Shown piece by piece: positions 9,756-29,532 of a stretch of DNA of 64,000 nucleotides. The notes beneath the pieces were generated by a model. It searched no databases and had not been told where the DNA came from. It was given only the letters and a program-made list of their open reading frames with translations. Location: assembly GCF_900112795.1 (NCBI RefSeq), contig NZ_FONA01000009.1, forward strand, positions 62,001 to 126,000. The letters are read 5' to 3'. The first letter of the stretch is position 1. Each line of letters opens with the position of its first letter. The position numbers and the translations under genes were made by a program. The stretch is from Thermophagus xiamenensis. Its GTDB lineage: Bacteria; Bacteroidota; Bacteroidia; Bacteroidales; Marinilabiliaceae.

Positions 9756-12700
9756 TTATGATTTTATTCGTTTAAACCGGCCGGCAAAATTAAGACCTTT
9801 TTTAAGGAGATCAAAATAAAGCACAATATAGAGGAGGATAGTCAACACCCACACAACGGCAATATTAAACCACAATGTTTCAAAGAAATGTCCTGCAAAA
9901 TATTTTGCAGGGGCAAAAAAATGGGTTCTGAAATCCAAATAATTAGAAGGCTCTGGTTTTTGATAAATTGGATCAACCATTTGTATTAGATGATCATCCT
10001 CCCGCAAAATTTTATTCTTATCGAATACCTTACGGACAATATCATTAATACTTTCGTTAAAATAGTCATCGCGAATACGTTCAAACTTTTCCCTATTGGC
10101 GTTGATATTGGCCGTAAGAAACTGTTCTTTAGTGGAATTAGCTTTAAAGAATTCATTCTGGTAATATTTCAGGATACGATCCAAATAGTTATTAATATCA
10201 ACAACGGTTTTATCGGAAAATTGATCGGGTGTAATTTGATTAAGGTTATTAAAAGGTATAGAAGGAACTCTTTTCATTTCCCGTGAAATCTCGTTTCGCA
10301 GCAGCTCAATATTGCTTTTAAATTGCTCAGAGGAAATATTTTCATCACCATTGAGATAGCGTTGTGTTTCGGAAACAATATCTCTTAATGTAGGAATATA
10401 ATAAACCTGTTTAAAGTCAGCCATGCTTTCACGCATCTCCACATCAAAGATATTTTTCTTAAAATTGTTGTGCTTGTACTGATGCACCATCAATCCTTCA
10501 TAAATCCATCTGGAAGGCATGAATTCAGCAATAACGGGCACTACATCGGGGCTTGAAAAGTCCTTGTTTAGCTTATCGAAAGTAAACATAGCACCCCCCA
10601 ACACCATTTGGGGAATCATCAGTAAGGGAATAAGAATATAAATGGTAATAATGGAATTAAAAGATGCTGAAATAATCAGCCCCAGAATATTTGCAAAGGC
10701 AGATATCGTGAAAAGAGCTATCCAGAATTCAAAATACATATTTTTAATACCAAGAACGGTATTGGCCACCCAAACGAACAACACCATTTGAATGGCAGAA
10801 ATAGCAAAAAGTATAAGAATTTTAGACATCAGATAGCTCGATCGGCTTAGATTTAGGAATGCCTCTCTTTTTAATATTTTGGCATCCTTAAAAATTTCTT
10901 CGGCACTTATGATCAAACCAAAAAATAGTGCTACAACAATTCCCATAAAAATGTAAGGGGGGATGTTTTCATTCTCTCTAAAGATATAAACATTTGAAGA
11001 AGGGTCGGCAATATATCTTACCAAATAGGATAAAATAAACCCAAGTAACGGGGCTTCTAAAAGATTTAGCAGGATATATTGGGTATTGCTGATTTTAGAA
11101 AAGAAATCACGTAAGGTATAAATCTTAAACTGGTTAAACCAGGAAGGGATATTCAAACTTTTAGGTGGAGTATCATGAACGGTTTTTACCTGGGGAATCT
11201 GAATATTTTTTTTAAACTGTTCATGCCACTCTTCTGGCGACACCTTTCTTTGGTCTGTATAATTACCGTATTCATCAATTACATTAGAATCGATGATATT
11301 AAAAATTAGTTCGGGATTAAGGTTTCCACAAGTAGGGCACTCACCTACATCGCTATTAATTTGTGCATCAAGCCGTTTAAAGTAGATCAACGATTCACTG
11401 GGATTGCCATAATAGACAGGATACCCTCCGGTATCGAGAATATACATTTTATCAAACATCTTAAAGATGTCTGACGAAGGTTGGTGAATTACCACAAAAA
11501 TAAGTTTCCCTTTTAAAGCAAGTTCTCTCAACAGGTTCATCACATTTTCGGAGTCCCGTGATGACAAGCCTGAAGTAGGTTCATCAACAAATAAAATAGC
11601 GGGCTCGCGAATTAACTCTAAAGCAATGTTAAGACGTTTGCGTTGACCACCACTGATCATTTTATTGAGAGGGGACCCCACTTTAAGATGTCGGCGGTCA
11701 TAAAGTCCCAGGCTTTTAAGGGTATCATCTACCAGTTGATGAATTTCCTCTTCACTTTTATCTTTAAAGCAAAGTTTGGCGTTATAATAAAGATTTTCAA
11801 AAACGGTAAGCTCTTCAATTAAAAGATCGTCCTGAGGGATTAACCCAATAACCCCCTCTAACTTTTCGGCATCCCGATGGAGGTCATAGCCATTAATGAG
11901 AACTTGTCCTTTTGTTGGTGTTTCAATACCCGACAGCACATTCAGCAAGGTTGTTTTTCCCGCACCGCTGGCTCCCATAATACCGATGAGTTTTCCCTGC
12001 TCTTCAGCCATTTCAATGTTTCGAATACCGATATCACCACTTTTGAAACGGTACTCCACATTTTTAACCTCATAAGTAATGCGGGGTGTATTTGTATCGG
12101 TCATGAAATGACCAACCACATCGGTAAAGTAGATGGGTTTTCCTTTAGGTACCTTAATAAAGCTCCCGTTGGGAAACAGATAAATTCTTCTTTTATCGAT
12201 GACCAGTCCGTTAAGAAAGATTTCCTGATCACCGGTATATCTCATAAAGTAAAGATCTGCACTTTTAACCCTAAGAATAATAATGGCCCCATCTAATCCT
12301 GGTGTATGAATAAATTTAGCCTCCTTAAAACCAGGATCTTCCTCTTTAGCCATTAACAAATTACCAAAGTCGAGCTTTCCCGGGTCATTATGAATAACAA
12401 AGTTCTCGACATTGCTAATTTCCTGATCGGACAATTTAAAGACATTGGCCACCGTATTAATGATGGCCATTCGTTGTTCGGTAAACTTATGATCGGCATT
12501 AACCAGTTCGTACAATCTGACCAGTACAACAACCTTTTGTTCACGATTAAGTTGTTTGTTAATTTTCTTACAAATTCCCAAAATCCGAACCGAATCTTTC
12601 ATGGAAGTCAGCCGGATCTTACCCTCTTCGCCTCGTCCAACTCTGGAATCGGCAGTATATTTCAAAAATAATTTATAATACTCTTCAACAGCCTCAGAAT

Positions 12701-12818
12701 TAAGCTGGTGTTTAAGAAAGGTTCTGACATATTCCGTTTCGTTGGATTCAACGCCTCCGTCTTGTTTGGCAATCAAGCCAAACAGTTGCATCAATGCCTT
12801 AAGAATTTCTTCGCTCAT
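9756..12818 (-). CDS. ABCG-like half transporter with N-terminal TerB domain
   Basis: 1020 residues. Residues 1-150 resemble a TerB tellurite-resistance-type helical domain (ALMQLFGLIAKQDGGVESNE). Residues 165-265 look like a small beta domain (FHA-like is possible). Residues 270-480 are an ABC ATPase of the white/ABCG type with Walker A GASGAGKTT, signature SGGQRKRLNIALEL and Walker B ILFVDEPTSGLSS. A cysteine-bearing linker (ECPTCGNL) follows, then an ABC2-type membrane part (about 585-760), a long charged helical insert (about 790-950) and one last membrane helix. The substrate is unknown. It sits 33 bp after siaC on the same strand, suggesting it is an output or partner of the partner switch (inference). 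Domain order is unusual for ABCG proteins. Confidence 0.8.
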   Translation of the reverse strand: MSEEILKALMQLFGLIAKQDGGVESNETEYVRTFLKHQLNSEAVEEYYKLFLKYTADSRVGRGEEGKIRLTSMKDSVRILGICKKINKQLNREQKVVVLVRLYELVNADHKFTEQRMAIINTVANVFKLSDQEISNVENFVIHNDPGKLDFGNLLMAKEEDPGFKEAKFIHTPGLDGAIIILRVKSADLYFMRYTGDQEIFLNGLVIDKRRIYLFPNGSFIKVPKGKPIYFTDVVGHFMTDTNTPRITYEVKNVEYRFKSGDIGIRNIEMAEEQGKLIGIMGASGAGKTTLLNVLSGIETPTKGQVLINGYDLHRDAEKLEGVIGLIPQDDLLIEELTVFENLYYNAKLCFKDKSEEEIHQLVDDTLKSLGLYDRRHLKVGSPLNKMISGGQRKRLNIALELIREPAILFVDEPTSGLSSRDSENVMNLLRELALKGKLIFVVIHQPSSDIFKMFDKMYILDTGGYPVYYGNPSESLIYFKRLDAQINSDVGECPTCGNLNPELIFNIIDSNVIDEYGNYTDQRKVSPEEWHEQFKKNIQIPQVKTVHDTPPKSLNIPSWFNQFKIYTLRDFFSKISNTQYILLNLLEAPLLGFILSYLVRYIADPSSNVYIFRENENIPPYIFMGIVVALFFGLIISAEEIFKDAKILKREAFLNLSRSSYLMSKILILFAISAIQMVLFVWVANTVLGIKNMYFEFWIALFTISAFANILGLIISASFNSIITIYILIPLLMIPQMVLGGAMFTFDKLNKDFSSPDVVPVIAEFMPSRWIYEGLMVHQYKHNNFKKNIFDVEMRESMADFKQVYYIPTLRDIVSETQRYLNGDENISSEQFKSNIELLRNEISREMKRVPSIPFNNLNQITPDQFSDKTVVDINNYLDRILKYYQNEFFKANSTKEQFLTANINANREKFERIRDDYFNESINDIVRKVFDKNKILREDDHLIQMVDPIYQKPEPSNYLDFRTHFFAPAKYFAGHFFETLWFNIAVVWVLTILLYIVLYFDLLKKGLNFAGRFKRIKS

Positions 12819-12851: not shown

Positions 12852-13232
12852 CTAGTCGTTATACAAAACGTAATCGAAGGGGATTTCAACAATATCGGCA
12901 TACTCTTCTCCCGCCTCCAACATATCCTCTTCATCTTCATGATAATGCCATTTAATCACCACTTCTTTACCTTTTTCCATAATTTCTTCCAGCTTCAATA
13001 ATATGTCCAGAATAATTTTAGAAGAAGCGGTGTTAAAATACTCTAGTTTAAAAGAAAACTCGGTCCGGTCATTAGGATCCTCACTATAGAGATCAATCCA
13101 ATCCAAAATAGGTTCATAAAACATATTAACGTCCTCAGGTAAGGAGCGACCTGAAATTTCAAATTTTCCGCTGGCTTTGTCTAAAATAACACTTGGAGTG
13201 TCATCAGTTCCCTGTATGTTAATTACATCCAT
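12852..13232 (-). CDS. siaC: SiaC-family (DUF1987) regulatory phosphoprotein
   Basis: 126 residues, full length for DUF1987/SiaC. The N-terminus has the family start (GTDDTPSVILDKASGKFEI, then GRSLPEDV), followed by the central motif EYFNTASSK. Thr68 in this motif matches the position phosphorylated by SiaB in the Pseudomonas aeruginosa system. By analogy, unphosphorylated SiaC would bind and activate a partner (a diguanylate cyclase in Pseudomonas); no GGDEF protein is present in this window, so the target differs or lies elsewhere. It lies 16 bp downstream of siaB. Confidence 0.85.
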   Translation of the reverse strand: MDVINIQGTDDTPSVILDKASGKFEISGRSLPEDVNMFYEPILDWIDLYSEDPNDRTEFSFKLEYFNTASSKIILDILLKLEEIMEKGKEVVIKWHYHEDEEDMLEAGEEYADIVEIPFDYVLYND

Positions 13233-13248
13233 AAATCTAAAAAATTTT

Positions 13249-13821
13249 TCAATTTCGTTTAATAGTAGAGGTTAATATAAAAAACGATACATCATCATTG
13301 AGCTCTTTAAATTGATAGGATAATTTACTTCCTGTCTTTTTAGCGATATCAATAAGTCCAAGCCCGGCACCACCCTTTTTGGAAAGTTTAGTTTCTTTGA
13401 TTTGCTGTTTGTAAAGGGAAGATAATCCGGCTTTATCAAGGCTATTGATATGTTCAAGACTTTCTTTTAAACCGGGGATTTTGGAATTACGGATAACATT
13501 CCCGGTAATAATTTTGTAGCTGTCTTCACCTTTACTCACCATAACAATACCACGCTTATCGGTTTCACCTTCGTCGGACAAGGTGTCGGCATGCTTACTA
13601 ATATTCTGCAAACACTCGACCATAACATTAAAAACCTTTCGCTGAACCTGATTAGGTTCTTCACTTCGGGCCATATTTTTTTCAGTAAGAGAAGTAAAAG
13701 TTTTGGTGATTTCTTGAGTAACTTCTCCTTCATAAACCAAATTAATCTCATTGGTTTTCATCGTCTTGTAGAGTTGGTAAGCAAACTCCAGAAAACGGTG
13801 ACTTTCTATTTCCTTACTCAT
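13249..13821 (-). CDS. siaB: SiaB-family protein kinase
   Basis: 190 residues, GHKL-fold kinase of the SiaB/DUF6272 family. It shows an N-box-like motif (NVMVECLQNISKHAD, with the Glu and Asn that bind Mg-ATP) and a glycine-rich lid (SKKGGAGLGLIDIAKK). By family it phosphorylates SiaC on threonine, opposed by the SiaA-type PP2C phosphatase encoded just upstream. The gap to the SiaA-like gene is 32 bp. Assignment rests on motif and gene order together. Confidence 0.85.
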   Translation of the reverse strand: MSKEIESHRFLEFAYQLYKTMKTNEINLVYEGEVTQEITKTFTSLTEKNMARSEEPNQVQRKVFNVMVECLQNISKHADTLSDEGETDKRGIVMVSKGEDSYKIITGNVIRNSKIPGLKESLEHINSLDKAGLSSLYKQQIKETKLSKKGGAGLGLIDIAKKTGSKLSYQFKELNDDVSFFILTSTIKRN

Positions 13822-13853: not shown

Positions 13854-16469
13854 TTACAATTCAATTCCTATCAATAAAACATCGTCAACTTGTTTTTCAT
13901 TTCCCATCCATTCATAAAATGTTTTTGGGAAAAACCTGGAAAAATGGGCCATAGTAAAACCGGGATCCATAGTTAAGGCCTCTCGAACTCTTTTGGGTTG
14001 AAATTTCTTTCTGTCAGGACCACCCAATTGGTCGGGAAGACCATCCGAAAAAATAAAGATCTTATCTCCCTCCTGATACTCAATCAAGTGATTTTCGAAC
14101 ACTTTCTCCTTCCTTCGAGGTAGCGGAGCCCCCCCAACGCCTTTACGAGTTCCCTGAAATTCCAATAACTCACCTTTACGCAATAAAAATAAAGGTCTAT
14201 GAGCACCACAAAAATCCAGCACCTTATTTTGTGGATTAATTTTACACAGGGCAATGTCCATACCATCACGACCTGTAGAACCTTCTTTATCCTGTTTAAG
14301 CGTTCTACGCACTTCCTGATGAAGTTGTTCCATAATTTGTGCAGAGGATAAAGAAGGATCAGCACTAACAATATTATTAAGCAAGAAATAGCCTATAAAT
14401 GAGAGCAGAGCACCTGGCACTCCATGCCCGGTGCAATCGACCGCGGCAACAAAAAAGACATCGTCTTTTTTGAGGAACCAAGGGAAGTCACCGCTAACCA
14501 CATCTTTAGGCCGATAAAAAATAAACGAACGAGGAAAATACTCCTGCAAATATTTAGAATCGGGAAGCAATGAACTCTGAATGCGTTGTGCATAATTGAT
14601 ACTGTCAGATATCTTTTTGTTTTTCTCTTTAATTTCCGCTTCAATTTTTTTGACCTCTGTCATATCATGTGACACAAACAACACCGACTCGAGTTCATTA
14701 TCATCATTCAATTCGGGGATACTCTTAATTTCCATTATTCTTTCCCCTTCCTGAGTCATTACCTTTACTTCGGAAATTATTGTATCTTGCTTCTGTTTAA
14801 TATTTGACAAAGTTTCTTCAATATAATTAACAAACTGGGCATCAACTTCCAGGTCACTTACTCTCTTTTTAATAATTTCGGAAGTAGGGATACCGACAAA
14901 ACGAGCCACTGCAGGATTCACATAAACTAATTTCCCCATCATATTAACGCGCATAATCATATCGGGGCTATTTTCGGATAGGCTTTGCATCCGACTTTTC
15001 ATGCGCTCCTCTTTTTCGGCTCTTTTGCGCTCAGTAATATCCTGCGTATTAAAAATTATACCACGAATAGCAGGGTCATGCAGTAAATTTTTACCTTTGG
15101 TTTCAAGAAATAATTTTTCACCGTTTTTCCTCAGGTAGGTATATTGAGCAGTTTGTTCACCACCCGGCGTTTCCAGAAGATATTGAAAAAGATTATTAAT
15201 GGTACGATAACCTCTGGGAGTAAGCAAATCAGGGTCCATCCCCGTAACATTATCGTCATCATCGTAACCCAAAATTCTTTTTACGGAAGGGCTTTCAAAA
15301 ATTAATTCCTGCTTTTCATTATAGATGGAAATAAATTCAGATGCATTGGTCAACAGTGCTTCTAACCGTTTTTGAGCATTAGCAACCTCCTGCACTTGTG
15401 CCTCAAGCATTTGATTGGATTTTTCCAGCTCTTCCTGCGTTTCGAGCATCTCCTGAGCATTTTGCCGGAGTTGTTCTTCGTTTTTCTGAAGCGTTTTGGT
15501 TAATTCCTGAGACTCTTTCAAAAGCTTTTGAGTACGATCAGTAATTTTCAGGTTATAAATTGTTTGCCCAATAGATTCTGCTACCACTTCAGCAAATGCT
15601 AAATGCCGGTTTTCCAGGCGCTCTTTAAGGAATGCTACTTCGACAACACCTTGCAGTTCTTCTTCCTGCAACAAAGGAATAACAAGCAAAGACTTTGGTT
15701 TCTTATCCCCAAGTAAACCGGAAGTAACGCTCCAATAATCATCAGGTATTTCTGTTCTATAAATTAACTGCTTTTCATAAGCAGCGGCACCCACCAATCC
15801 TTGCCCGATTTTAAATTCGTCATATTCAAAGCGTCGACGATTATAAGCATACATGGCGCGACGTTTCAGAGTATCCTCTTCCAAAATGTAGAAAGCACCT
15901 TGAATAGCCCCCAGATATTCGATTAATTCACGTAGAACAGCAAGGGTTAGTTCCTCTAAATTTCTATGCATCCTTAAAAGGTCCGACATCTTCTCTTTGC
16001 CTCTGGAAATATAATTTTCCTCCTCCTCCCGAAGCCGGGCAACTTTTATATTTTTCCCGATATCGCGCAAAACCGTAGCCAAGGGGTCGTCGGCACAAAG
16101 TTCATCCAGGTCCTCTTTACCCTCTTTTAGATGATTAGCCAGGGCAATATTATGCTCGATTCGCTTTTTTAAATTCCAAATCTCTAGTCTAAAACGGTTA
16201 GTTTTTTCATTTAAATAATTCCGAACAAAGACGAAAGAAAAAGGAATGGCAATAATTAAAAAATCAACAAACCAAACCAACCACCAGGTATGCAACGACA
16301 ATATATTTGAAAAACTAAAAACACTTTTTTCAATGGACAGAAAACCTTCCCATGCCAAAAAAAGAAACAGAAAGATAAAAACCAAAAGATAGAAACGTTC
16401 CTTTACGGACAATACGCCTGTATAGAACAACTTTCTAACTCTTTTATATAATCTCTCAGATATATTCAT
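13854..16469 (-). CDS. SiaA-like membrane GAF-PAS-PAS PP2C (SpoIIE) phosphatase
   Basis: 871 residues. Two membrane helices (about 24-45 and 62-86) enclose only a short loop, so it is not a classical periplasmic sensor. Then come a charged linker, a GAF domain (about 185-325), a coiled coil containing EEQLRQNAQEMLETQEELEK, two PAS domains (about 370-485 and 495-625) and a C-terminal SpoIIE/PP2C phosphatase (about 645-871). Metal-binding motifs are present: VSGDF, VDCTGHGVPG and FSDGLPDQLG. It likely dephosphorylates SiaC. Unlike Pseudomonas SiaA it senses through cytoplasmic GAF/PAS domains. The ATG at 16469 sits exactly at the 3' edge of an interspersed element (TTTATACGG then ATG), so the element supplies the 5' untranslated region. 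Confidence 0.85.
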   Translation of the reverse strand: MNISERLYKRVRKLFYTGVLSVKERFYLLVFIFLFLFLAWEGFLSIEKSVFSFSNILSLHTWWLVWFVDFLIIAIPFSFVFVRNYLNEKTNRFRLEIWNLKKRIEHNIALANHLKEGKEDLDELCADDPLATVLRDIGKNIKVARLREEEENYISRGKEKMSDLLRMHRNLEELTLAVLRELIEYLGAIQGAFYILEEDTLKRRAMYAYNRRRFEYDEFKIGQGLVGAAAYEKQLIYRTEIPDDYWSVTSGLLGDKKPKSLLVIPLLQEEELQGVVEVAFLKERLENRHLAFAEVVAESIGQTIYNLKITDRTQKLLKESQELTKTLQKNEEQLRQNAQEMLETQEELEKSNQMLEAQVQEVANAQKRLEALLTNASEFISIYNEKQELIFESPSVKRILGYDDDDNVTGMDPDLLTPRGYRTINNLFQYLLETPGGEQTAQYTYLRKNGEKLFLETKGKNLLHDPAIRGIIFNTQDITERKRAEKEERMKSRMQSLSENSPDMIMRVNMMGKLVYVNPAVARFVGIPTSEIIKKRVSDLEVDAQFVNYIEETLSNIKQKQDTIISEVKVMTQEGERIMEIKSIPELNDDNELESVLFVSHDMTEVKKIEAEIKEKNKKISDSINYAQRIQSSLLPDSKYLQEYFPRSFIFYRPKDVVSGDFPWFLKKDDVFFVAAVDCTGHGVPGALLSFIGYFLLNNIVSADPSLSSAQIMEQLHQEVRRTLKQDKEGSTGRDGMDIALCKINPQNKVLDFCGAHRPLFLLRKGELLEFQGTRKGVGGAPLPRRKEKVFENHLIEYQEGDKIFIFSDGLPDQLGGPDRKKFQPKRVREALTMDPGFTMAHFSRFFPKTFYEWMGNEKQVDDVLLIGIEL

Positions 16470-16837: not shown

Positions 16838-17617
16838 TTATAAAATATTCTTTTTAATTAGTTGTTCCATAATAGCCGGCCAATGCCGCTCTGCATCACA
16901 ATCCTTGAAGGTCATGATTTCTATCAGCCCAACACATTCACCTTCTTTTAAAATGGGTAATAAGTATAAAAAATAGTTCTTACTTTTCCCTAAGGCAGTT
17001 TCAACCGACACGTAGTCCGCAGGGACATCTTTCACCATCAAAGGTTTCTTGTCGGTAACAGCCTGCCCATTAAGCCCGTCGCCTTCAACAAAAGGTTTGG
17101 GTTCAAAATCTTCTGGTAATCCGAAAGAGGCTTCTACGTTAAATTGATTATCAGGTTCTTCTTTTTTGTACCAGATGGCGGCCATTCCTTGAAAAAACTC
17201 AATTAACAAAAACAAAAAATGGTGCTTATCAGATTGCACACGAGAATCGGTGACAAGTTTTTGGATAATTTTATCCTGGTACGAAACAAACCTTTTTTCT
17301 TCATCGTCTTTTCTGGCATATTCAGCAATTAAATTTTCCAATTCTCTTATTTTTTGTTCACTTTTTATCCGTTCATCCTCTAGCTTATTTTTATACTTTT
17401 TCAGTTGAAGATGAACAAATTGATTGTTTTTATCGCTAATATAGAAAGCGGCCAAAAAAAACAAAAAAGCCAGGGTTTCAACCAAATAATATGAAGTTCC
17501 TGGATAATGACTGAGAAAAACATTTTTAAACAACGACAAGGTAAAGGCAATACCTCCGAAAAGGAAAAGCCATTTTTGAAAATTATGGTTATTAAAAAAA
17601 TGCCTGATCATATTCAT
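16838..17617 (-). CDS. membrane-anchored coiled-coil GAF protein
   Basis: 259 residues. Two membrane helices (about 13-30 and 42-59), a coiled coil (about 66-115, rich in K/E), then one GAF domain (about 118-255) that resembles the GAF domains of the neighbouring 628- and 871-residue proteins (shared DVPADYVSVETALG-like segment). There is no output domain, so it probably works by hetero-association. It lies 17 bp downstream of the stand-alone CheB gene and 369 bp upstream of the SiaA-like gene, in the same direction. Probably a sensory subunit of the second signalling layer (inference). Confidence 0.75.
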   Translation of the reverse strand: MNMIRHFFNNHNFQKWLFLFGGIAFTLSLFKNVFLSHYPGTSYYLVETLAFLFFLAAFYISDKNNQFVHLQLKKYKNKLEDERIKSEQKIRELENLIAEYARKDDEEKRFVSYQDKIIQKLVTDSRVQSDKHHFLFLLIEFFQGMAAIWYKKEEPDNQFNVEASFGLPEDFEPKPFVEGDGLNGQAVTDKKPLMVKDVPADYVSVETALGKSKNYFLYLLPILKEGECVGLIEIMTFKDCDAERHWPAIMEQLIKKNIL

Positions 17618-17634
17618 TTTTTTACCTTGTTTTA

Positions 17635-18213
17635 TTACCCCTTTAATTGATTCAATACCTGAACAATTTCATCAGGTTTAAGGACCTGGTTGGGGGTAAA
17701 CAACTTGAGTGCAGCCCGAGGCATTGTATCGACCTCACAAGAAGCGGGGTCCTGAACAATTGTAAATCCTTTTTTATCGTGAATACATTTAATTCCTTGC
17801 GCTCCATCTCTATTGGCACCGGTCAGAATAATCCCGAGGGCTTTTTCTCTGAATGCAAATGCTGCCGACGAAAAGGCATAATCGATAGAAGGCCTACTAT
17901 GATTATTTACCTCTTCAGTAGACAAAGAAACCGTACCATCAAATTCAACAAAAAGGTGATAATTTGAAGGTGCCAACATGGCAATACCAGGCCTTAACTT
18001 ATCTTTATCATACGGTTCCACAACCGGAATTTTTGACTTCATATTCAGTCCCTCTACCAGCCCGGAGCGTATATGCTTAAGACGATGAAGACATAACACT
18101 ATTGGGACAGAAAAGGATGGATCCAGTTGAGAAAGTATCCTGGATACAACTGAAAAACTTCCGGCCGAACCACCTATAACGACCACTTTAAACTTCTGAT
18201 CCGGTATATTCAT
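17635..18213 (-). CDS. stand-alone CheB methylesterase domain, no receiver
   Basis: 192 residues, just the CheB catalytic domain. The triad is visible: Ser in VIGGSAGSF, His in VLCLHRLKH and Asp in LTGANRDGAQGI. The N-terminal receiver present in the 22106-23185 CheB is absent, so activity is not gated by CheA phosphorylation in the usual way. In Bacteroidota, receiver-less CheB is common as the first domain of large CheB-CheR-PAS hybrid proteins; here the same parts follow as separate genes. It removes methyl groups from, or deamidates, glutamates of a receptor-like partner. Confidence 0.85.
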   Translation of the reverse strand: MNIPDQKFKVVVIGGSAGSFSVVSRILSQLDPSFSVPIVLCLHRLKHIRSGLVEGLNMKSKIPVVEPYDKDKLRPGIAMLAPSNYHLFVEFDGTVSLSTEEVNNHSRPSIDYAFSSAAFAFREKALGIILTGANRDGAQGIKCIHDKKGFTIVQDPASCEVDTMPRAALKLFTPNQVLKPDEIVQVLNQLKG

Positions 18214-18325
18214 CCAATCCTTTTATATATTTAGTTTATTATCTCGTTTAATTAATAATTTCCCAAACTTGAACTTTTACCAACAGGGAACTATACGATC
18301 TGCAATAAAACAATCTAAAGAGCCT

Positions 18326-19135
18326 TCAAATTTTTTTAAATATACTTTCTTTCCTATCTAAAACACATAACTGATTATGAAATACCTCGGGAATAGACTC
18401 TCGAACACCCAAGGCAATAATTCCACCCGTTTTTAAATTGCTTAGCAACCTCGCTAAAAGCTCTTCTTTCTTACGAACCGTATAATTAATGCCTGAATTC
18501 CGAAAAAGAATTAAATCAAATTTTTCATTAAAATCGCCCACTCCTACCGAAGCACACTTAAACTCACAGAATTCCAAAAGCTCTTTGTTAAAATATTTTT
18601 CACCCTCCTTCTCGATAAAATAATTGTTGAACAAGTCTTTCTCTTCCAGCCTTCGATAGTTATTATAACTAATCTCTATTTTTTTCTGATCTATGACTCC
18701 TTCAGAGATTTCTCTGCATTTTTCTTTAGAGGGATGCTGACACAAAACCTTCACGTTATTAAGTATTCCTTGTTCTTTTAGCAAAATCAACAAAGAATAA
18801 ACCTCCTCTCCCGAAGGTGTATCGGGGAACCATACCGACCAGCCTTCCTTATCGAATAAAGAAAAAACATCACGTCTTAAGACCCTCCAAAATCCGGGGT
18901 CGCGGAACATTTCGGTCACATTAACGGCCATATGATAGTTTATCAATTCCCTGAAATTTTCATCAGCCAATTGTTCACAAAACTGGGTCAATCGGCGTAT
19001 CTTAAGTTGGGAAAAGATATGTCCAAGCCTTCTTTTTAAAAAAGAGAAGGAGTGCCCGGAATAATCCAAACAATCATACTTGGACATTTCACTGGTAACT
19101 GTTTTAATTTCTTTTATACTAAGAGAAACACCCAT
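18326..19135 (-). CDS. decayed CheR-like protein, probably catalytically dead
   Basis: About 269 residues from the ATG at 19135, 17 bp after the upstream CheR; an in-frame ATG at 19174 would overlap that gene. The CheR layout is clear: the N-terminal helical domain ends in AVNVTEMFRDPGFW, like VNTTDFFRDPELW of the neighbour. The S-adenosylmethionine site is broken: GCSTGEE is replaced by PDTPSGEE, the ATDIS strand by CQHPSK, and CRNVLIYF by FRNSGINYT. The frame is fully open, so it is expressed or recently lost. It probably arose by duplication of the adjacent cheR and may bind receptor without methylating it (inference). Confidence 0.8.
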   Translation of the reverse strand: MGVSLSIKEIKTVTSEMSKYDCLDYSGHSFSFLKRRLGHIFSQLKIRRLTQFCEQLADENFRELINYHMAVNVTEMFRDPGFWRVLRRDVFSLFDKEGWSVWFPDTPSGEEVYSLLILLKEQGILNNVKVLCQHPSKEKCREISEGVIDQKKIEISYNNYRRLEEKDLFNNYFIEKEGEKYFNKELLEFCEFKCASVGVGDFNEKFDLILFRNSGINYTVRKKEELLARLLSNLKTGGIIALGVRESIPEVFHNQLCVLDRKESIFKKI

Positions 19136-19151
19136 GTTCAAAATATTGTAA

Positions 19152-20012
19152 TCAGCATCTAAAATGAAACCCATTGCTTTTTTTAAAAACAGGGCCCGTT
19201 TTTTCAAATTTAGTTTTAAAAAAACCATTTAAACTTTCGTGAGCACCCAAAACAAGTGTACCATTAGAGAACAATACATCAAAAAAACGTTGAATAATTC
19301 TAGTTTGTAATTTGGCATTAAAATAAATAAGGACATTTCTGCAAAAGACAATATCCATTTTATTATAGAATGGTAAGCCATTTTTTACCAGATCATGGCG
19401 AATGAATTTTATATTTTTCTTTAGTAATGGTTTAACAGTAATGATGTCATTCATTGAATCAACGTCAAAATATTTATCTAAAATCTGCTCGCCTTTCTTA
19501 GGGTCATTAAAAACTTTTGAAAAATTGTCAATACATCCCCTTTCAATTTGGTGTTTATAAATTCCCTCTTTTGCTTTATCTAAAGCTTTTTGACTTATGT
19601 CGGTGGCAAAGACTCTGGTTTTAGGGAGCATCCCCAGTTCATTAAATAAGATTAAAAGGGAAAAAACTTCCTGCCCAGTAGAGCAGCCTGCATGCCAAAT
19701 ATTGATAACTCCATTTTTGCGATAAATAGATAAATGTTTTTCAAATAAAAATCTCCACAATTCAGGGTCTCTAAAAAAATCTGTTGTATTAACGGTGATG
19801 GCTTCAACAACCTCTTCAACAAAACGATTATCAGAGAGGGTACGGGCTGTTAACTCATCGAAGGTCATCTTATGGTCTTGCATCACCTTTTGGATTCTTC
19901 TGTTAATAGAATTATCGGAATATTCAGAAAAATCATAGGGTGTATGCTCTTTAAGCACCCGGAGGTATTCTTTATAGGTCATTACTTTGGGTTGATACAA
20001 CTCTTCAATCAA
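19152..20012 (-). CDS. cheR: CheR-type protein methyltransferase (second copy)
   Basis: 286 residues with intact CheR motifs: VNTTDFFRDPELW, the SAM-binding WHAGCSTGQEVFSLL, FATDISQKALDKA and the catalytic-side VFCRNVLIYF. It methylates glutamates on receptor-type coiled coils using SAM. The frame opens with TTG at 20012, abutting the stop of the 628-residue protein; an ATG at 19982 (MTYKEYLRVL) is an equally plausible start. Tight coupling to the GAF-PAS-PAS gene suggests that protein, not only the MCP, is the substrate or partner. Confidence 0.88.
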   Translation of the reverse strand: MIEELYQPKVMTYKEYLRVLKEHTPYDFSEYSDNSINRRIQKVMQDHKMTFDELTARTLSDNRFVEEVVEAITVNTTDFFRDPELWRFLFEKHLSIYRKNGVINIWHAGCSTGQEVFSLLILFNELGMLPKTRVFATDISQKALDKAKEGIYKHQIERGCIDNFSKVFNDPKKGEQILDKYFDVDSMNDIITVKPLLKKNIKFIRHDLVKNGLPFYNKMDIVFCRNVLIYFNAKLQTRIIQRFFDVLFSNGTLVLGAHESLNGFFKTKFEKTGPVFKKSNGFHFRC

Positions 20013-21899
20013 TTAAAACAACTCAACTTCAACATTTTGAATAAATGCGGTGTAAGAATGGTCGTCACCCACCTGGGCTTCTGATAATAGGAAAAGTACC
20101 GGAACTTCTTCACCGTATTTATTCAAAATAGGCACTTCTTTACGTTGTCCAATTATTTTGTTTTCTCCAGGATTAACAAAAGCAGACACAAATGGATCAT
20201 TTTTAGCTGTATTTTTTGAAAAGAGCTTAGAAACGTGTTTCCCTAACACCTCTTCTCGTGAATAGCCCCATAATTTTTCAGCCGCCGCATTAAAAAACTC
20301 CAAGATTCCATCTTTATTAGTGGTAATAATGGCATCAAGTGCCCCTTCCAGAGTCTTTTCATTTCTGATTTTCACAGCTTCAATTTCCTTAAAATGCTCT
20401 TTCACTTCATTTCTGGCCTCTTCAAGCATAATACCCAATTCCTCTTTGGAACGTTTAAGAGCCTCTTCCATCTTCACCTGCTCGGTTACATCATTCTCCA
20501 AACTAAGAATCTTCATTATATTGCCATCATTATCAACCACCGGCGAATAGGTGGTAAGTAAATATATTTCTTCCCCCAGTTTAGTTCTACGCCTTACACG
20601 ACCACGGAAGTTCTGCCCTTTTTGCAGTTGAGAAAGAATTTTATCTAGCTCAGGTTCATCTTCCTTAAAAAAGAAAATTTTAAGATTTTGCCCTTCAATT
20701 TCTTCAGGTCGATATTTGAAAGTATTCAGGAAATTATGATTTACCGAAATAAGTGTTCCATCAGTTTCAAATTCACAGCTTATAGCTGCATGGTCAATAG
20801 CATCGAGAATCCCTTGCATTTCTATTTCCCGCCTTTCACTTTCCTCTTGAGTGGCGGTCATCTCTTCAAGATTTTGCCGCAGTTCCTCTTCCTGCTGAGC
20901 CATTTTTTCCGCCTGAATTTGGGTTTCTTTCAGCAACTTGGAAGTTTTTATATTGGTCTTAACGGTAGAAATAGTAACTGCAATACTTTCACCCAACTTT
21001 TCAACAAATTCGATTTCAAATTGCTGAAAAGGCCTAAAAGAGGCTAGCTCAATAACACCATAAATCTCTTCATTAGCTTTAAGTGGCACAATCAAAATGG
21101 CACCAGGAGTAGCTTCACCAAGTCCCGAAGTTATATTGACATACCCATCAGGCACATCTGTCATATAAATAGTTTCTTTTTCCAAAGCGCACCGCCCCAC
21201 TAATCCTTCACCCCACTTAATTATTTTGTCGGCAAATTTTCTACGGTCGTAAGCAACACAGGCCGTCATTTCAAAATACTTTTCCCCTTCTTCCCCGGTT
21301 TCGGGTTGATTTAACAGGAAAAATCCACCTTGGTTAATCTTCATATAATTAACCAGATAATGAATAATGTTATAGGAAAGTTCTTCAAGGTTATCGTTAT
21401 TTTTCCTTAAAAGTTCGGCAAACTGAGCGAGACCTTGTGTCACCCAAGCCCGTTGTTCTTCCTCCAATCGACGCTGTTCCTGTTCTTTTTTGCTTTGAAT
21501 CATGAATTCTCTAAGCTTTATAAGGGCATTCGTCAAAGCATCGTGCTTCCTGTTATTAGGAATTATCTCATCTAATTTACCCTGTCTAAGGTTGTCGATA
21601 AACCCCAACACCATACGGGTTTTGCTAGCCTCTTTCTTGATACGTTTATGCTGTTTGCGAAGTGCCCTAACAAAAACACTCGATACCTGATAACCAAGAA
21701 AAGCAAAAATGAAAGGGAAAAATACCACAATCCACATACCTGGTACCAAATAAAGGAGGCTCCATAATCCTTCACCGGTTTGCTTTACTGGTCCGGCATC
21801 AAGACTAAGTAAAATTATGAGCACAGCCAAAATCAAACCAAAGGCAAAACCTCTGAGCGAATATTGCGATAATATGTTACGATAATCTTTCTTCTTCAT
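20013..21899 (-). CDS. membrane GAF-PAS-PAS sensory protein without kinase domain
   Basis: 628 residues. Two membrane helices (about 17-30 and 46-72), a HAMP-like stretch (about 90-140, GKLDEIIPNNRKHDALTNAL), a GAF domain (about 150-320), a coiled coil with paired glutamates (AQQEEELRQN and MTATQEESER), a PAS domain (about 365-475), a second coiled coil and another PAS domain (about 510-628). There is no histidine kinase, cyclase or phosphatase output. PAS 2 contains the FFNAAAEKLWGYSREEV signature. It resembles the sensory half of CheB-CheR-PAS hybrids. Its stop codon abuts the cheR start. The coiled-coil EE pairs could be methylation sites (inference). Confidence 0.82.
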   Translation of the reverse strand: MKKKDYRNILSQYSLRGFAFGLILAVLIILLSLDAGPVKQTGEGLWSLLYLVPGMWIVVFFPFIFAFLGYQVSSVFVRALRKQHKRIKKEASKTRMVLGFIDNLRQGKLDEIIPNNRKHDALTNALIKLREFMIQSKKEQEQRRLEEEQRAWVTQGLAQFAELLRKNNDNLEELSYNIIHYLVNYMKINQGGFFLLNQPETGEEGEKYFEMTACVAYDRRKFADKIIKWGEGLVGRCALEKETIYMTDVPDGYVNITSGLGEATPGAILIVPLKANEEIYGVIELASFRPFQQFEIEFVEKLGESIAVTISTVKTNIKTSKLLKETQIQAEKMAQQEEELRQNLEEMTATQEESERREIEMQGILDAIDHAAISCEFETDGTLISVNHNFLNTFKYRPEEIEGQNLKIFFFKEDEPELDKILSQLQKGQNFRGRVRRRTKLGEEIYLLTTYSPVVDNDGNIMKILSLENDVTEQVKMEEALKRSKEELGIMLEEARNEVKEHFKEIEAVKIRNEKTLEGALDAIITTNKDGILEFFNAAAEKLWGYSREEVLGKHVSKLFSKNTAKNDPFVSAFVNPGENKIIGQRKEVPILNKYGEEVPVLFLLSEAQVGDDHSYTAFIQNVEVELF

Positions 21900-22105: not shown

Positions 22106-23185
22106 TCAAATAAAATATTTCATAACATAAGGTGCCATTTTATCAATTGGAAGCACTTTTTGGGCCGCTCCTAATTTGATCGCTTCTTTAGGCATTCCAA
22201 AAACTACAGACGTTTCTTCATCCTGAACCAGGGTAGCAGCACCAGCCTCTTTCATTTCCAATAATCCTTTTGCGCCGTCACTTCCCATACCGGTAAGTAA
22301 GATTCCCATGGCATTTTGTCCAGCATAACGAGCCGCTGACCGGAAAAGAACATCTACGGAAGGGCGATGCCGGTTGACCAAAGGACCTTCTCTTACCTCA
22401 ACCGAATACTCTTTACCGGTACGCTTAAGCAGCATATGGTGATTTCCGGGTGCAATAAGCACTCGTCCCTGATATAATCTATCACCATTTTCAGCTTCTT
22501 TAACTTCCAGATTACACAATGCATTAAGACTTTTAGCAAATGAGCGGGTAAAGCCTTCGGGCATGTGCTGAACAATAGCAATTCCAGGCATTTTAGCAGG
22601 AAGCACTTTTAAAAAAGCACGGATAGCCTCGGTTCCACCTGTTGATGCACCTAATACAATGATTTTTTCGGTGTCAATGATTTTTTTATACGAAACGCTT
22701 TTTTTAAGAATAACATCGGCGGACAATTTAGGGGCAATCCAATCAATATGGTTATGATGATTTAACTTAAGGCGAGTAAGTTTTGCCTGGGAGGCCGCCT
22801 TAACAGCATCACACAATAAAATTTTAGACTCATTAATAAATTGCCCGGCATTCATGGCGGGCTTCCCAATAATCTCAGATGCACCATATTCAAGAGCTCT
22901 CATGGCTGTTTCAGTCCCTTCGGTAGTAAGAGAAGAAATTACAACAACAGGAATAGGATGTTGCGACATAATTTTTCGAAGGAATGTTAAGCCATCCATC
23001 CGGGGCATTTCAATATCCAGTGTAATTACATCCGGCACCTCTTTCATAATCTTTTTAACAGCAATTAGAGGATCTGCTGCAGTCCCCATGACTTCAATAT
23101 CGGGGTCAGACTCCAATATAGCAGACAAGCTTTGCCTAACAACAGCCGAATCATCAACAACTAAAACCCGGATTTTTTTACTCAT
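22106..23185 (-). CDS. cheB: CheB protein-glutamate methylesterase/deamidase
   Basis: 359 residues, typical length. An N-terminal receiver ([14 protein letters not shown], phospho-acceptor Asp57 in [12 protein letters not shown], Lys in the GKPAM loop) is linked to the methylesterase domain with Ser in [11 protein letters not shown], His in [10 protein letters not shown] and Asp in [12 protein letters not shown]. CheA phosphorylates the receiver and relieves inhibition of the esterase. It lies 9 bp downstream of cheD. Confidence 0.95.
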
Positions 23186-23194
23186 TTCTATAAA

Positions 23195-23668
23195 TTACAA
23201 TTCCTTTTTATCTAAAAACTTATGTCTTACCTCGCCAGTGTCGGTAAAAAAAAGAATCTTACGGCCTTTTCGACCTCCAGTGCTAGAAGCTACCACCGGA
23301 ATCTTTTTTTCTTCCAGAATAAGCCGAGCTACCCTTATGTTCCGTTCACCAATCAAAGTGCCATTAGCACCGCTTTCCAGTAATTCGGCGCCACCAAAAA
23401 TTTTGGCTTTGAGGTTTTCCCGTTTGGCACCCAAAAATATCATTCGTTCCAATAACTTATCAATGGCAATATTCCCATATTTAGGGGAGGCCAAATCATT
23501 CCCGTTCCAAGTGGGGAGCATATAATGATTAATACCACCAATTTTAGTTACCGGATCCCATAAACAAATGGCAACACATGATCCTAAAATGGTTTTCACC
23601 ACATAGGGCTCTCTACTGGCAAACAAGGTGGATGGGTATAAAAAATGTTGTGTATATTGTTGCTCCAT
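23195..23668 (-). CDS. cheD: CheD chemoreceptor glutamine deamidase
   Basis: 157 residues with the CheD catalytic Cys (TILGSCVAICL), His (GGINHYMLP) and Thr regions (ANGTLIGERN). CheD deamidates receptor glutamines and in other bacteria is controlled by binding to the CheY-P phosphatase CheC; no CheC, CheX or CheZ is found in this window. It lies 12 bp after the pseudo-kinase gene. Confidence 0.93.
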   Translation of the reverse strand: MEQQYTQHFLYPSTLFASREPYVVKTILGSCVAICLWDPVTKIGGINHYMLPTWNGNDLASPKYGNIAIDKLLERMIFLGAKRENLKAKIFGGAELLESGANGTLIGERNIRVARLILEEKKIPVVASSTGGRKGRKILFFTDTGEVRHKFLDKKEL

Positions 23669-23680
23669 TTAGTAAAAACC

Positions 23681-24580
23681 TTAAAAAATCTCATCACCAT
23701 CGTCAAAAAAGATGTCATTACCTTCACCACTAAAACCTTCAACAACATTTTTGGCTTCAGGAAGGTGTATGGTAAAGGTCGATCCCTCACCTTTCCGGCT
23801 TTCAATTTCAATTTCTCCTCCTAAAACATCCAGAAGAGCTTTTGTAATGGAAAGGCCAAGTCCATGACCACGGTTGATGGAGTTAATGCCAGTATCAAGC
23901 CTCTTAAAACGCTCGAAAATGATTTTTTGGTTTTTTTCGGAAATACCTGTACCAAAATCTCTTACTGAGAAACTCAGTATTTCGTCATTGGCCCAAACCC
24001 TAATAATTACCTTGCCATCTTTATAGCTATATTTCAACGCATTATTCAACAAATTGCTTAAAATAAGCTTCAGTTTTTCACTATCGGTTTTAAAATAAAA
24101 GTTTTTCCCAAAGCCATATTCAATTTCCCATTCAAAGTCTATTTCAATCCCCATTTTTCGGGCTACGAGACTAAAGGAATCGATAATACTTTGGATTACA
24201 CCCCGAATATTGACCTTTGAGATATTAGGTGTAACCTCCCCAGCTTCAATTTTTGCAGCAACAAAAATATTCCTCAATTGAAAATCTAAATTAAAAGCCT
24301 CACTATGAATTAAGGCCACCATGGAAACCACTTTCTTCCAGTCATTCTTTTCAACCGAAAGAATTGATTTGGATAACCCGAGAATAGAGGTAAAAGGGTT
24401 GACAATCTCATTGGAAATATTGGAAATAAAGTGGCTTTTAAGAGCTTCTGATTCTCTAAGCTTTTTGGTAACCTCCTGCAATTCCTTTGTGAGCATTTGA
24501 ACTTCCTGCTCAAATTTCTTCCGCTCGTTTAGCTTCTCTCTTAATTCTTTTAAAAGCTGTCTGTCACTAATGTTTGCCAT
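23681..24580 (-). CDS. histidine-kinase-like protein lacking the phospho-accepting His
   Basis: 299 residues: a coiled coil (about 8-48), a HisKA-like dimerisation region and a HATPase domain. The H-box reads FISNISNEIVNPFTSILGLS, so the residue that should be His (in the usual SHE) is Asn57. The ATP-binding parts look intact: N-box LSNLLNNALKYS, G1 RDFGTGIS and G2 GHGLGLSITKALL. With no sensor or receiver domain it cannot autophosphorylate at the normal site. It could bind ATP as a scaffold or regulate CheA (inference). It lies between cheR and cheD, with 93 bp upstream. Confidence 0.85.
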   Translation of the reverse strand: MANISDRQLLKELREKLNERKKFEQEVQMLTKELQEVTKKLRESEALKSHFISNISNEIVNPFTSILGLSKSILSVEKNDWKKVVSMVALIHSEAFNLDFQLRNIFVAAKIEAGEVTPNISKVNIRGVIQSIIDSFSLVARKMGIEIDFEWEIEYGFGKNFYFKTDSEKLKLILSNLLNNALKYSYKDGKVIIRVWANDEILSFSVRDFGTGISEKNQKIIFERFKRLDTGINSINRGHGLGLSITKALLDVLGGEIEIESRKGEGSTFTIHLPEAKNVVEGFSGEGNDIFFDDGDEIF

Positions 24581-24673
24581 AATGCATCATTTAAAAAAGC
24601 GTCATCGTATTAATAAATCATTTATCTTTTATAGCCTTAATTCAAATTCAAAACAATTACAACCATTAAAGTT

Positions 24674-25543
24674 TTATTTCCGCTTAAAAATAGTTGGCTT
24701 AACATTTTCGAGCGGAACATCCATTCCCGACAATGATTCAGAATGACCAATAAAAAAATAGCCGTCTGATTTTAGATGCCGACACAGACGGTTAATAACC
24801 TTTTCTTGAGTGTTTCTGTCAAAATAAATAAGCACATTTCTGCAAAAAATAACATCGAATTTTTCCACCACATCATATGACTGATCCATTAAATTCAAAT
24901 ACTTAAGTTTAAAATCTTTTTGGAGTTCAGGGATTACCCGAACAGTTGGATTCAGACGATTCTTGCTTCTTAAGAAGTAGCGCTTTTTTAATGCCTGAGG
25001 AACCATATCGATTTTAGCCTCCTTATAAACACCTTTAGCCGCAGTTTCAAGCATTTTATTTGAAATATCTGTCCCCAATATTTCAAACCTGAAACCTGGA
25101 TTTCTCAACTTAAATTCGCTAAGAACGATAGCAATGGTGTAACCTTCCTCGCCACTCGAAACGCCTGCACTCCATACTTTAAAAGGCTGTTTCATTCCTC
25201 CACGGGTAGAAAAATCCGGTAAGACCTGTTCCGATAAAAAATCAAAATGTACCGGTTCTCTAAAAAAATCGGTTTTATTGGTTGTTATAACATTTAAAAA
25301 ATTAAACAACTCCTTTTTTTGGCCTTCTTTACTAAAGAAAAAATCCCGATATTGGGAATAGGAATTCATCTTTAATTCACGAATTCTCTTTAACAACCTG
25401 CCTTGAAGCATAATGCGCTTGGCAGGAGGCATTTTAATCCCATATTCCCTATATATAAATGTACTAAAAGCCTGAAAATCTTGTTCAGACAGTTGGGCTT
25501 TAAAACAATCAAAACCTTTAGCACTATTTTCTTCAACCATCAT
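24674..25543 (-). CDS. cheR: CheR chemoreceptor methyltransferase
   Basis: 289 residues with the classical CheR arrangement: N-terminal helices, VITTNKTDFFREPVHFDFL, the SAM motif WSAGVSSGEEGYTIA, ILGTDISNKMLETA, the beta-subdomain (NRLNPTVRVIPEL) and VIFCRNVLIYFDRN. The beta-subdomain is where the C-terminal pentapeptide of receptors docks in tethered systems; the MCP here ends in NYEKF. The gap to cheW is 3 bp, so translation is coupled. Confidence 0.93.
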   Translation of the reverse strand: MMVEENSAKGFDCFKAQLSEQDFQAFSTFIYREYGIKMPPAKRIMLQGRLLKRIRELKMNSYSQYRDFFFSKEGQKKELFNFLNVITTNKTDFFREPVHFDFLSEQVLPDFSTRGGMKQPFKVWSAGVSSGEEGYTIAIVLSEFKLRNPGFRFEILGTDISNKMLETAAKGVYKEAKIDMVPQALKKRYFLRSKNRLNPTVRVIPELQKDFKLKYLNLMDQSYDVVEKFDVIFCRNVLIYFDRNTQEKVINRLCRHLKSDGYFFIGHSESLSGMDVPLENVKPTIFKRK

Positions 25544-25546
25544 TTC

Positions 25547-26023
25547 TTAACTACTCCACTGCTCTTTGGCAATCGAAACAATTTTATTCATTTCGATTAC
25601 CTCTTTATCAGTAAAAACTTTATCAGGATCTAAAACCAAAATAAAATCATTCTCAAATTTAAATAGGCCATCCACATAGCCTGGTTTATATTCCTGTTGA
25701 ATAGGCTTTAACGCCTTCTCCTCGACTTCAATTACATCAGAAACCGAATCGACCAAAATGGCAACTCTATAATTACCTTGGCCTGATTCTAAATTAAGGA
25801 CAACAAAAACTGAGTTTTTGGAGAGTTTCACAGAACCCAAATTAAATTTAATACCGGTATCAATTACCGGAATAACTTCTTCTCTAAATTCAAGCAACCC
25901 GGCTAAAAAAACCGATTGCTTGGGAACAGGTTTTGGTTGCTCGTATTCCCGGATTTCTAAAACCCTGGAAACATGTATTGCAAAGACTTCTTTGGCAAGT
26001 CTAAATGTCAGATAGGACTCCAT
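25547..26023 (-). CDS. cheW: CheW adaptor, copy 1
   Basis: 158 residues, a two-lobed CheW SH3-like fold: SYLTFRLAKEVFAIHV at the start, LLEFREEVIPVIDTGIKF in the middle, then RVAILVDSVSDVIEVEE and DGLFKFENDFILVLDPDKVF. It links CheA to receptors. It has a slightly longer tail than copy 2, so the two are divergent rather than recent duplicates. Confidence 0.93.
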   Translation of the reverse strand: MESYLTFRLAKEVFAIHVSRVLEIREYEQPKPVPKQSVFLAGLLEFREEVIPVIDTGIKFNLGSVKLSKNSVFVVLNLESGQGNYRVAILVDSVSDVIEVEEKALKPIQQEYKPGYVDGLFKFENDFILVLDPDKVFTDKEVIEMNKIVSIAKEQWSS

Positions 26024-26055
26024 CTATCTATTTTAATTAAAATCCAAAATTCAAT

Positions 26056-26508
26056 TTAAATTTCAGCTGCAATAGTTAACTCTTGCACGTCTACAATATG
26101 AATGAATTGGTTTTCAAAAAGAAAAGTCCCTTTAAAATTTTTAATGCGACTTTTCTTTGAATCAACCACTGTGGGTTTCACCTCAATACCTTCTGCCTCA
26201 ATAACCTCTTTCACCATATCCACCATTACCCCCAAATTATTCTCTTGTTGGTCATCCGGGGAAACAACAATAATGGCTGTGTCATGATTAATACCTTTAT
26301 CCGGAAAACCCATCATCACTCTTAAGTCAACTACAGGAACAATATTTCCATGAAGATTTATCACACCTTTCATAAATTCAGGAGTATTCGGAACTTTAGT
26401 GATCTCAGAAACCTCAAGGATATGATTTACCTTCATGGCATCTAAAGCAAAAAACTCCTCACCAACTTTAAAAGATAGAAGGGTATTATTTTGTTGTTGC
26501 CCGGCCAT
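26056..26508 (-). CDS. cheW: CheW adaptor, copy 2
   Basis: 150 residues with SFKVGEEFFALDAMKVNHIL, GVINLHGNIVPVVDLRVM and GVMVDMVKEVIEAE, the standard CheW motifs. It lies 18 bp downstream of cheA. Two distinct CheW in one operon may serve the MCP and the soluble or GAF-PAS partners separately (inference). Confidence 0.93.
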   Translation of the reverse strand: MAGQQQNNTLLSFKVGEEFFALDAMKVNHILEVSEITKVPNTPEFMKGVINLHGNIVPVVDLRVMMGFPDKGINHDTAIIVVSPDDQQENNLGVMVDMVKEVIEAEGIEVKPTVVDSKKSRIKNFKGTFLFENQFIHIVDVQELTIAAEI

Positions 26509-26526
26509 AATTTAACCTTTTGACAT

Positions 26527-28590: not shown

Positions 28591-28666
28591 ATTATTTTGC
28601 GGTTTCTCACATTTTTTTGCCTACAAGAGAAAGCAAATAGCTATTAATAGACAGATATAATAGAAT

Positions 28667-29032: not shown

Positions 29033-29036
29033 ATGT

Positions 29037-29366: not shown

Positions 29367-29532
29367 AATGGCGTTTCACTAAATATTAAACTTAATCTTC
29401 ATTTCAGTTTCAAGCTGATATCCAATAACTTCAACTCAAAAAAGTTAAAACACTCAATCGCTTCCTGACAAATTGAAAAAGCTATTTTGTTAAATTACTT
29501 GCCACTAATTCAAATAGAAAGAGAAACAAATA

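Follow-up and report, generated by a model that had tools for sequence, protein, structure and literature searches.

A conserved gene order in Bacteroidota links CheR, a degenerate CheR and a receiver-less CheB to a SiaABC-like switch and a candidate methyl-accepting coil

Introduction

In bacterial chemotaxis, methylation by CheR and CheB is generally regarded as the memory that serves CheA pathways. In the present work a locus is described in which genes of this chemistry are joined to a SiaABC-like phosphatase switch. It lies in a stretch of 64,000 nucleotides of Thermophagus xiamenensis (contig NZ_FONA01000009.1, positions 62,001 to 126,000), hereafter the window, and all coordinates count from its first letter. 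Five genes of the locus (16838-21899) had been pointed out earlier from the letters alone (the sequence-only reading).

Neither the chemistry nor the switch is new in itself. In Pseudomonas aeruginosa, phosphorylation of SiaC at T68 is reported to be balanced by SiaA and SiaB (PMC7647112), and DUF1987 (SiaC) proteins have been suggested to be common modulators of adjacent proteins (PMC8457831). In the FrzF/FrzCD pair of Myxococcus xanthus, similarly to what is proposed here, CheR-type methylation is reported to control the reversals of gliding cells and one site fits the Escherichia coli consensus; FrzCD, however, is a methyl-accepting chemotaxis protein (MCP) and Frz a chemosensory system (PMC2535941). 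In the open-licence literature no description was found of CheR/CheB coupled to SiaABC or of a degenerate CheR partner, and the same applies to the combination and to the receptor family presented below.

With MCP-CheA systems the module shares intact CheR motifs, the CheB triad, a coil with an EExxAT motif and dCache/HAMP membrane receptors without an output domain of their own. It differs from them in that it has no MCP signalling domain, its CheB (CheBr) is receiver-less, its second CheR (CheR') is degenerate, CheA and CheW are dispensable, and the output is a PP2C phosphatase.

We lean towards the reading that the locus encodes a CheA-independent adaptation module in which methylation of sensor coils by CheR, CheR' and CheBr would tune the SiaABC switch, with a transporter as the likely output. 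The observations behind it are the order of the genes, their conservation, catalytic motifs that are either intact or degenerate, and the co-occurrence and loss of a coil motif. CheR, probably with CheR' as partner, would methylate a glutamate in an EExxAT site of the coil located after a GAF domain, and CheBr would demethylate that glutamate of the membrane-sensor coil. In the window's family the acceptor would be the sensor GPP (20013-21899), with E346 as the predicted site; in most other sampled families, the acceptors would be dCache/HAMP-GAF-coil-PAS receptors and the SiaA-like phosphatase itself. By analogy with the resetting by CheR and CheB of MCPs that act on CheA, the methylation level would set the action of the sensor on SiaA. 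SiaA and the kinase SiaB would in turn set the phosphorylation of SiaC, which would act on a neighbouring target, most likely a TerB-ABC transporter.

Results and Discussion

Layout and conservation of the gene order

A check of open reading frames (ORFs) and Pfam matches found all five ORFs of the sequence-only reading to be real, on the minus strand and at the coordinates claimed. The first product in order of transcription is GPP (20013..21899), the proposed methyl acceptor, which is a protein with two transmembrane segments (TM), a GAF-coil-PAS-PAS layout (Pfam GAF and two PAS) and no output domain. It is followed by CheR (19152..20012; Pfam CheR, E 1.7e-41) with intact S-adenosylmethionine (SAM) motifs, for which the start was called at TTG and ATG at 19982 is a possible alternative. 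Next come CheR' (called as 18326-19228; Pfam CheR, E 1.8e-17), CheBr (17635..18213; Pfam E 2.7e-49), which consists of the methylesterase domain alone with the Ser/His/Asp triad present, and GAFm (16838..17617), a two-TM GAF protein with a weak GAF match (E 4.6e-5) under the Pfam cut-off. The module then continues on the same strand with a SiaA-like phosphatase (13854..16469; two TM, GAF, coil, PAS-PAS and PP2C/SpoIIE), a SiaB-family kinase (DUF6272; 13249..13821), SiaC (12852..13232) and the transporter, a protein with TerB, ABC ATPase and ABC2 membrane parts (9756..12818). The interval originally delimited was thus right for its five genes and omitted the Sia genes (12852-16469), the transporter (9756-12818) and two further conserved genes. 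The Sia genes, said to follow directly, do lie downstream, but 368 bp separate GAFm from SiaA. Given this gap and another one of 206 bp before GPP, the module may be transcribed as more than one unit.

In order to follow the arrangement in relatives (G-numbers denote genomes and L-numbers fetched stretches or loci), 295 genomes of the order were searched with CheR', of which 143 matched. Forty of the stronger matches, with preference for long contigs, were mapped over stretches of up to 20 kb with purpose-built profiles. Among these 40 order-mates, a stand-alone CheB was called in 39, two CheRs within three genes in 37 and GAFm in 38; SiaA-SiaB-SiaC followed downstream in 29 and ABC in 28, and a GAF-PAS sensor stood beside the CheRs in 13. 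A second set consisted of the best 80 named loci by CheBr among the matches listed, half of them window-like. CheBr was called in 79, and at least 8.5 kb was available downstream in 63, where GAFm (63), PP2C (63), SiaB (51), SiaC (51) and ABC (50) were found; the gene preceding CheBr was CheR-like in 77 of 78 of the best named loci. The gene caller missed CheBr in L042 and L125, though the searches place it there, so that 39/40 and 79/80 are undercounts.

The block reads CheR, CheR', CheBr, two-TM GAF protein, SiaA-like, SiaB, SiaC and TerB-ABC in Bacteroidales. In Cytophagales, e.g. Marivirga arenosa (L183) and Cesiribacter andamanensis (L167), it holds one CheR with intact motifs, and some of these intact CheRs were typed as CheR' by the profile. 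Among the named matches listed, the best for CheBr come from Anaerophaga, at 83% and 82% identity, followed by Marinilabilia at 78-79%, which places the window near the Marinilabiliaceae. A plasmid search with CheBr gave 586 records, all below 60% identity. The order therefore recurs in relatives, being neither unique nor random, and is not due to chance. CheR, CheR', the receiver-less CheB, the GAF protein and SiaABC, which the sequence-only reading had noted together, co-occur in a conserved manner across order-mates and named loci. The arrangement reaches far beyond the genome of the window and is common to many Bacteroidota.

The coil and the receptor family

The same coil follows the GAF domain in GPP and in the SiaA-like proteins, and other membrane proteins have it too. 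In GPP the conserved coil covers residues 315-371 (20787..20957, minus strand). In an alignment of 26 coils, E31, E32 and T36 never vary and A35 hardly does, giving the motif E-E-x-x-A-T, which matches the reported consensus for methylation by E. coli CheR (PMC1079850). The corresponding EEMTAT of GPP (E345-T350; 20850..20867, minus strand) fits this consensus and predicts E346 as the methylated residue. In the SiaA-like protein of the window, the coil (15378-15545, minus strand) carries the degenerate motif QEMLET. Methylation of the GPP coil had been proposed before, and the comparative evidence supports a maintained methylation-type site in it.

Twenty stretches were fetched for coil matches, and 35 coil proteins were found in 19 of them (none was called in L071). 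According to the profiles, HAMP is present in 31 of the 35, and 34 lack PP2C, histidine kinase and receiver domains. Ten of these receptors were further analyzed with Pfam: 8 matched a sensor domain familiar from MCPs (Cache-type or four-helix-bundle), HAMP was present in 5, GAF in 10 and PAS in 9, and none had a domain of the MCP, kinase, receiver, PP2C or GGDEF type. The MCP signalling domain was likewise found neither in GPP (Pfam) nor in the 35 coil proteins (profile). The layout is often dCache-HAMP-GAF-coil-PAS without a known output domain; one such receptor (L086:4264-7275) ends in a hemerythrin domain (Pfam), and its neighbour has, by eye, a similar tail. Up to 22 coil matches occur per genome, and tandem runs of three to five output-less coil receptors were seen in L072, L073, L088, L089 and L090. 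A CheR-binding C-terminal pentapeptide was found in none of the listed GPP-like and SiaA tails, those of the receptors being checked by eye.

Co-occurrence of coil and CheBr

Presence of CheBr in the 295 genomes of the order sample was defined by a cut of our own choice (E <1e-51). This gave 89 CheBr genomes and 90 coil genomes with 82 in common, i.e. a coil in 82 of the 89 CheBr genomes versus 8 of the 206 others. SiaB was present in 88 of the 89 CheBr genomes. When only the 123 genomes with SiaB were compared, the coil was present in 82/88 with CheBr versus 8/35 without it (Fisher 1.4e-14). Two genomes just under the cut, G004 and G168, carry the cassette and no coil, and their inclusion changes the figures to 82/91 and, among SiaB-positive genomes, 82/90. 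Strong CheBr is lacking in eight of the coil genomes, of which four are less than 90% complete (G009, G127, G181 and G228), three belong to a family called f8 here, and the last one is G264. Among 238 genomes sampled evenly across the phylum, a strong coil match (E <1e-12) was present in 4/4 CheBr genomes (E <1e-80) and in 0/234 others, with weak matches (E 4e-6 or worse) in eight further genomes; the four positives are the window's own genome and three of one other family.

Loss of the motif and the question of another substrate

Unique coils were scored for EExx[AS]T wherever the profile still matched (E 0.01), a count from which strongly decayed coils may be missing. In families other than the window's, the motif was kept in 67/73 coil proteins without PP2C or histidine kinase and in 54/62 SiaA proteins. 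In the window's family it was kept in 0/38 SiaA and in 32/35 proteins of the class without PP2C; the three failures (L106, L120 and L132) are cut or broken pieces of SiaA, hence 32/32 for GPP. In this family GPP seems to have taken over the acceptor role from SiaA. Over the part that they share with GPP, the sensors that adjoin CheR in other families show about 35-44% identity to it, and they are possible orthologues.

In family f8 (G007, G125 and G223) the locus lacks CheR' and CheBr but includes CheR, a sensor resembling GPP, GAFm, SiaA, SiaC and ABC. SiaB was called nearby in G007 and G223; several genes of G125 look broken and SiaB was uncalled there. The motif was kept in 1/11 of the f8 coils (one doubtful row, L214, score 11.6, being dropped), with much of the helix remaining. 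This f8 variant, with its decayed coil motif, is seen in L226, L227 and L228.

Several observations weigh against the methylated coil as the basis of the module. Kinship among the genomes inflates every co-occurrence figure, so that the probabilities cannot be read as if the trials were independent, and the three other positives of the phylum sample are one family. The window's family (f1) and f8 are also single lineages, which makes the motif losses two events and not dozens. The cassette occurs with no coil at E 0.05 in G026, G033, G123 and G147, and also without coil in G004 and G168, while the coil match of G192 is doubtful (E 0.027). In G147 and G168, SiaB-SiaC come immediately after the cassette, with neither SiaA nor GAFm; G026 has CheR'-CheBr-SiaB-SiaC-ABC as one run, and its CheR is encoded on the opposite strand. 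Twelve of the 63 named loci have SiaA without adjoining SiaB-SiaC; 8 of these 12 are named Carboxylicivirga. Finally, f8 retains an intact-looking CheR despite its decayed coils, and G243 has CheBr plus two decayed coils. Because of the coil-less cassettes, the CheR retained in f8 and G243, CheR and CheBr may have a second or older substrate.

Taken further, the coil would be merely a structural signalling helix, and CheR, CheR' and CheBr would modify or bind another target, e.g. SiaB or SiaC. The runs of G147, G168 and G026 fit such a target, as does the near-constant company of CheBr and SiaB. We nevertheless consider this unlikely, since the coil motif corresponds to the CheR consensus, CheBr predicts the coil even within SiaB-positive genomes, and the SiaA of the window's family and the f8 proteins keep the helix whereas their EE and AT positions change. 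A SpoIIE search gave between 9 and 49 PP2C matches in each of six cassette genomes without coil, and another phosphatase could therefore serve SiaC there. Cassette variants in which CheBr is followed by SiaB-SiaC, with no SiaA, GAFm or coil, are seen in L215, L218 and L220.

The degenerate CheR

The first 31 residues of the CheR' ORF as called correspond to the end of the preceding CheR gene read in another frame. An ATG at 19135, just past the CheR stop, gives a protein of 269 aa, close to the lengths in relatives. The ORF as called is thus probably over-long, with the start at 19135 (18326..19135, minus strand). An Asp of the SAM site, which we take to contact AdoMet in CheR, was kept in 38/38 CheR and lost in 38/40 CheR' sequences of the alignment, window included. 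The two CheR' rows that keep it are L048 and L054, the latter being a lone active-type CheR. Among the named loci of Bacteroidales type in the matches listed, it was kept in 65/65 CheR and 0/61 CheR'; L178, grouped with Cytophagales and titled Bacteroidales, has a single CheR that was typed as CheR' by the profile and keeps the Asp. The description of this protein as a dead CheR is borne out to the extent that its SAM-site signature is lost.

The CheR fold appears to be kept in CheR', as the AlphaFold2 model has a pLDDT of 87.5 and its best match in PDB is 5ftw (TM-score 0.84 on target length). Three of eight gene pairs allowed an estimate of dN/dS, which was 0.10, 0.07 and 0.05 at dS of 0.81, 2.79 and 1.46, not all of them well below saturation; dS was saturated in four of the other pairs and the gene was untyped in one. 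CheR' thus seems to be under purifying selection, and a simple decay of the gene is unlikely given these values. In a maximum-likelihood tree of 73 rows (midpoint-rooted, with three very long CheR' branches and P_L215 grouping with L178), 23 of 24 CheR' rows lie on one side of a branch with support 100/99. CheR and the f8 CheRs form one group (98/100), inside which the f8 CheR is nested with moderate support (81/93), and this fits a loss in f8. We read CheR' as the result of a duplication within Bacteroidales followed by loss of activity. It would perhaps act as a partner of CheR.

Relation to CheA chemotaxis

The module adjoins a canonical che cluster (22106..31281, minus strand), on which the sequence-only reading was silent. 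Transcribed from 31281 to 22106, the cluster encodes MCP, STAS-like, CheY-like, CheA, CheW, CheW, CheR, a histidine kinase, CheD and REC-CheB, the STAS-like gene being assigned by eye. The genome gave three CheR-domain matches, all of them in the cluster or the adjoining module. The MCP (29533-31281) ends in NYEKF, which resembles a CheR-binding pentapeptide. Ordinary chemotaxis adaptation, with extra CheR and CheB copies serving the MCPs of this cluster, is suggested by the position of cassette and GPP after MCP-CheA-CheW-CheR-CheD-CheB in the window and, in close relatives, after as much of that cluster as lies within the fetched stretch. Yet the window also encodes a canonical CheR and a REC-CheB, and CheA lies in the fetched stretch of only 3 of the 40 order-mates, all of the window's family. 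Moreover, a CheW-domain match is absent in 21 of the 76 CheBr genomes that are at least 90% complete, 16 of the 21 having the coil. CheA is thus not needed, and a chemotaxis-only role was discarded as a general explanation; we hold ordinary chemotaxis adaptation to be quite improbable. The claimed separation from CheA is supported in general by these CheW-less genomes and must be qualified for the window's family with its adjoining che cluster. A protein of G214 (L233), 40% identical to GPP and with the same EVELF end, is encoded two genes from a canonical che cluster, and GPP may therefore also connect the Sia switch with the CheA pathway.

As regards the features of MCP-CheA systems, receptors with an MCP domain and a requirement for CheA/CheW were not found, whereas the Asp of CheR (38/38), the triad of CheBr (40/40) and EExxA(S/T) in a receptor coil were all present in the sequences. 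The comparative data point to CheR/CheB chemistry on receptors without MCP domain, also in genomes without CheW. Tentatively, and with somewhat more doubt than trust, these parts could be seen as a separate methyl-accepting sensory class of Bacteroidota, in which up to 20 or more dCache/HAMP-GAF-coil-PAS receptors, CheR with a pseudo-CheR, CheBr and a phosphatase switch replacing CheA would drive an ABC transporter. The residue predicted to be methylated can now be named, as can a conserved pseudoenzyme of the CheR type and a large family of uncharacterised receptors, and the role of the receiver-less CheB and extra CheRs in Bacteroidota becomes a directly testable question.

Origin of the receiver-less CheB

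The sequence-only reading had framed the locus as a CheB-CheR-PAS hybrid taken apart into separate genes. The same domain families are indeed present in the genes of the window, whereas the hybrids are single polypeptides. Once CheBr's own subfamily is set aside, stand-alone CheBs scored best in the phylum sample (E 1e-57 to 8e-46), while the giants (open frames of about 1000-1500 aa) reached E 3e-30 or weaker; by profile scores CheBr is nearer to stand-alone CheBs and the best REC-CheBs than to the giants. Furthermore, L099 holds a CheB-CheR-PAS giant alongside a stand-alone CheR-CheB pair, and no Sia genes occur in this stretch. On profile scores, by which alone kinship was judged, and on gene layout, the hybrid origin was discarded, and the splitting of a giant is regarded as highly improbable.

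Four of the stand-alone CheBs were mapped (L098-L101), and each of them has CheR and a hybrid histidine kinase as neighbours. More broadly, L098-L101, L103, L104 and L221 show a distinct CheR, mostly with a stand-alone CheB, beside three-receiver hybrid histidine kinases. These pairs resemble the module in that CheR adjoins a receiver-less CheB and a membrane GAF sensor. They differ in their output, a histidine kinase with receivers, in having a single CheR (motifs intact where examined, L098-L104) and in a coil that is absent or weakly matched; no CheB was called in L103.

The Sia switch and its candidate output

All three Sia proteins of the window score below the NCBIfam equivalog cut-offs, and SiaB is above the cut-off of the SiaB family. 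The Thr of YFNTASSK in SiaC aligns with the Thr of YLNTSSIK in a solved SiaC. Judged by such sequence features, the PP2C domain of SiaA, the SiaB kinase and the phospho-Thr site of SiaC are all in place, as in SiaABC(D) of P. aeruginosa. In contrast to the latter, the SiaA of the module has GAF-coil-PAS-PAS, the switch is linked to CheR/CheB, TerB-ABC lies downstream, and no GGDEF match was found in 9/9 cassette genomes searched, window's included. A diguanylate cyclase is therefore not the expected output, and the receptors would be wired to a serine/threonine switch without it. The TerB-ABC transporter is the most constant neighbour after SiaC, and for these two reasons it is proposed as the target of SiaC. 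In many genomes ten or more SiaB-like matches were observed, some in open frames of 370-540 aa, and L224 encodes a SiaB-SiaB double protein.

Further features of the window

A promoter scan gave 53 promoter-like sites compared with a mean of 57.1 in shuffles, and a Bacteroidota-type pattern drawn from general knowledge gave 3 sites against 3.37 expected, i.e. chance level. Two conserved proteins without NCBIfam or other family match are encoded on the minus strand 3' of the transporter. The first one (8773..9693; 306 aa), for which neither a Pfam match nor a PDB fold match at E 0.001 was obtained, is lipoprotein-like, and the second one (8196..8666; 156 aa) looks exported.

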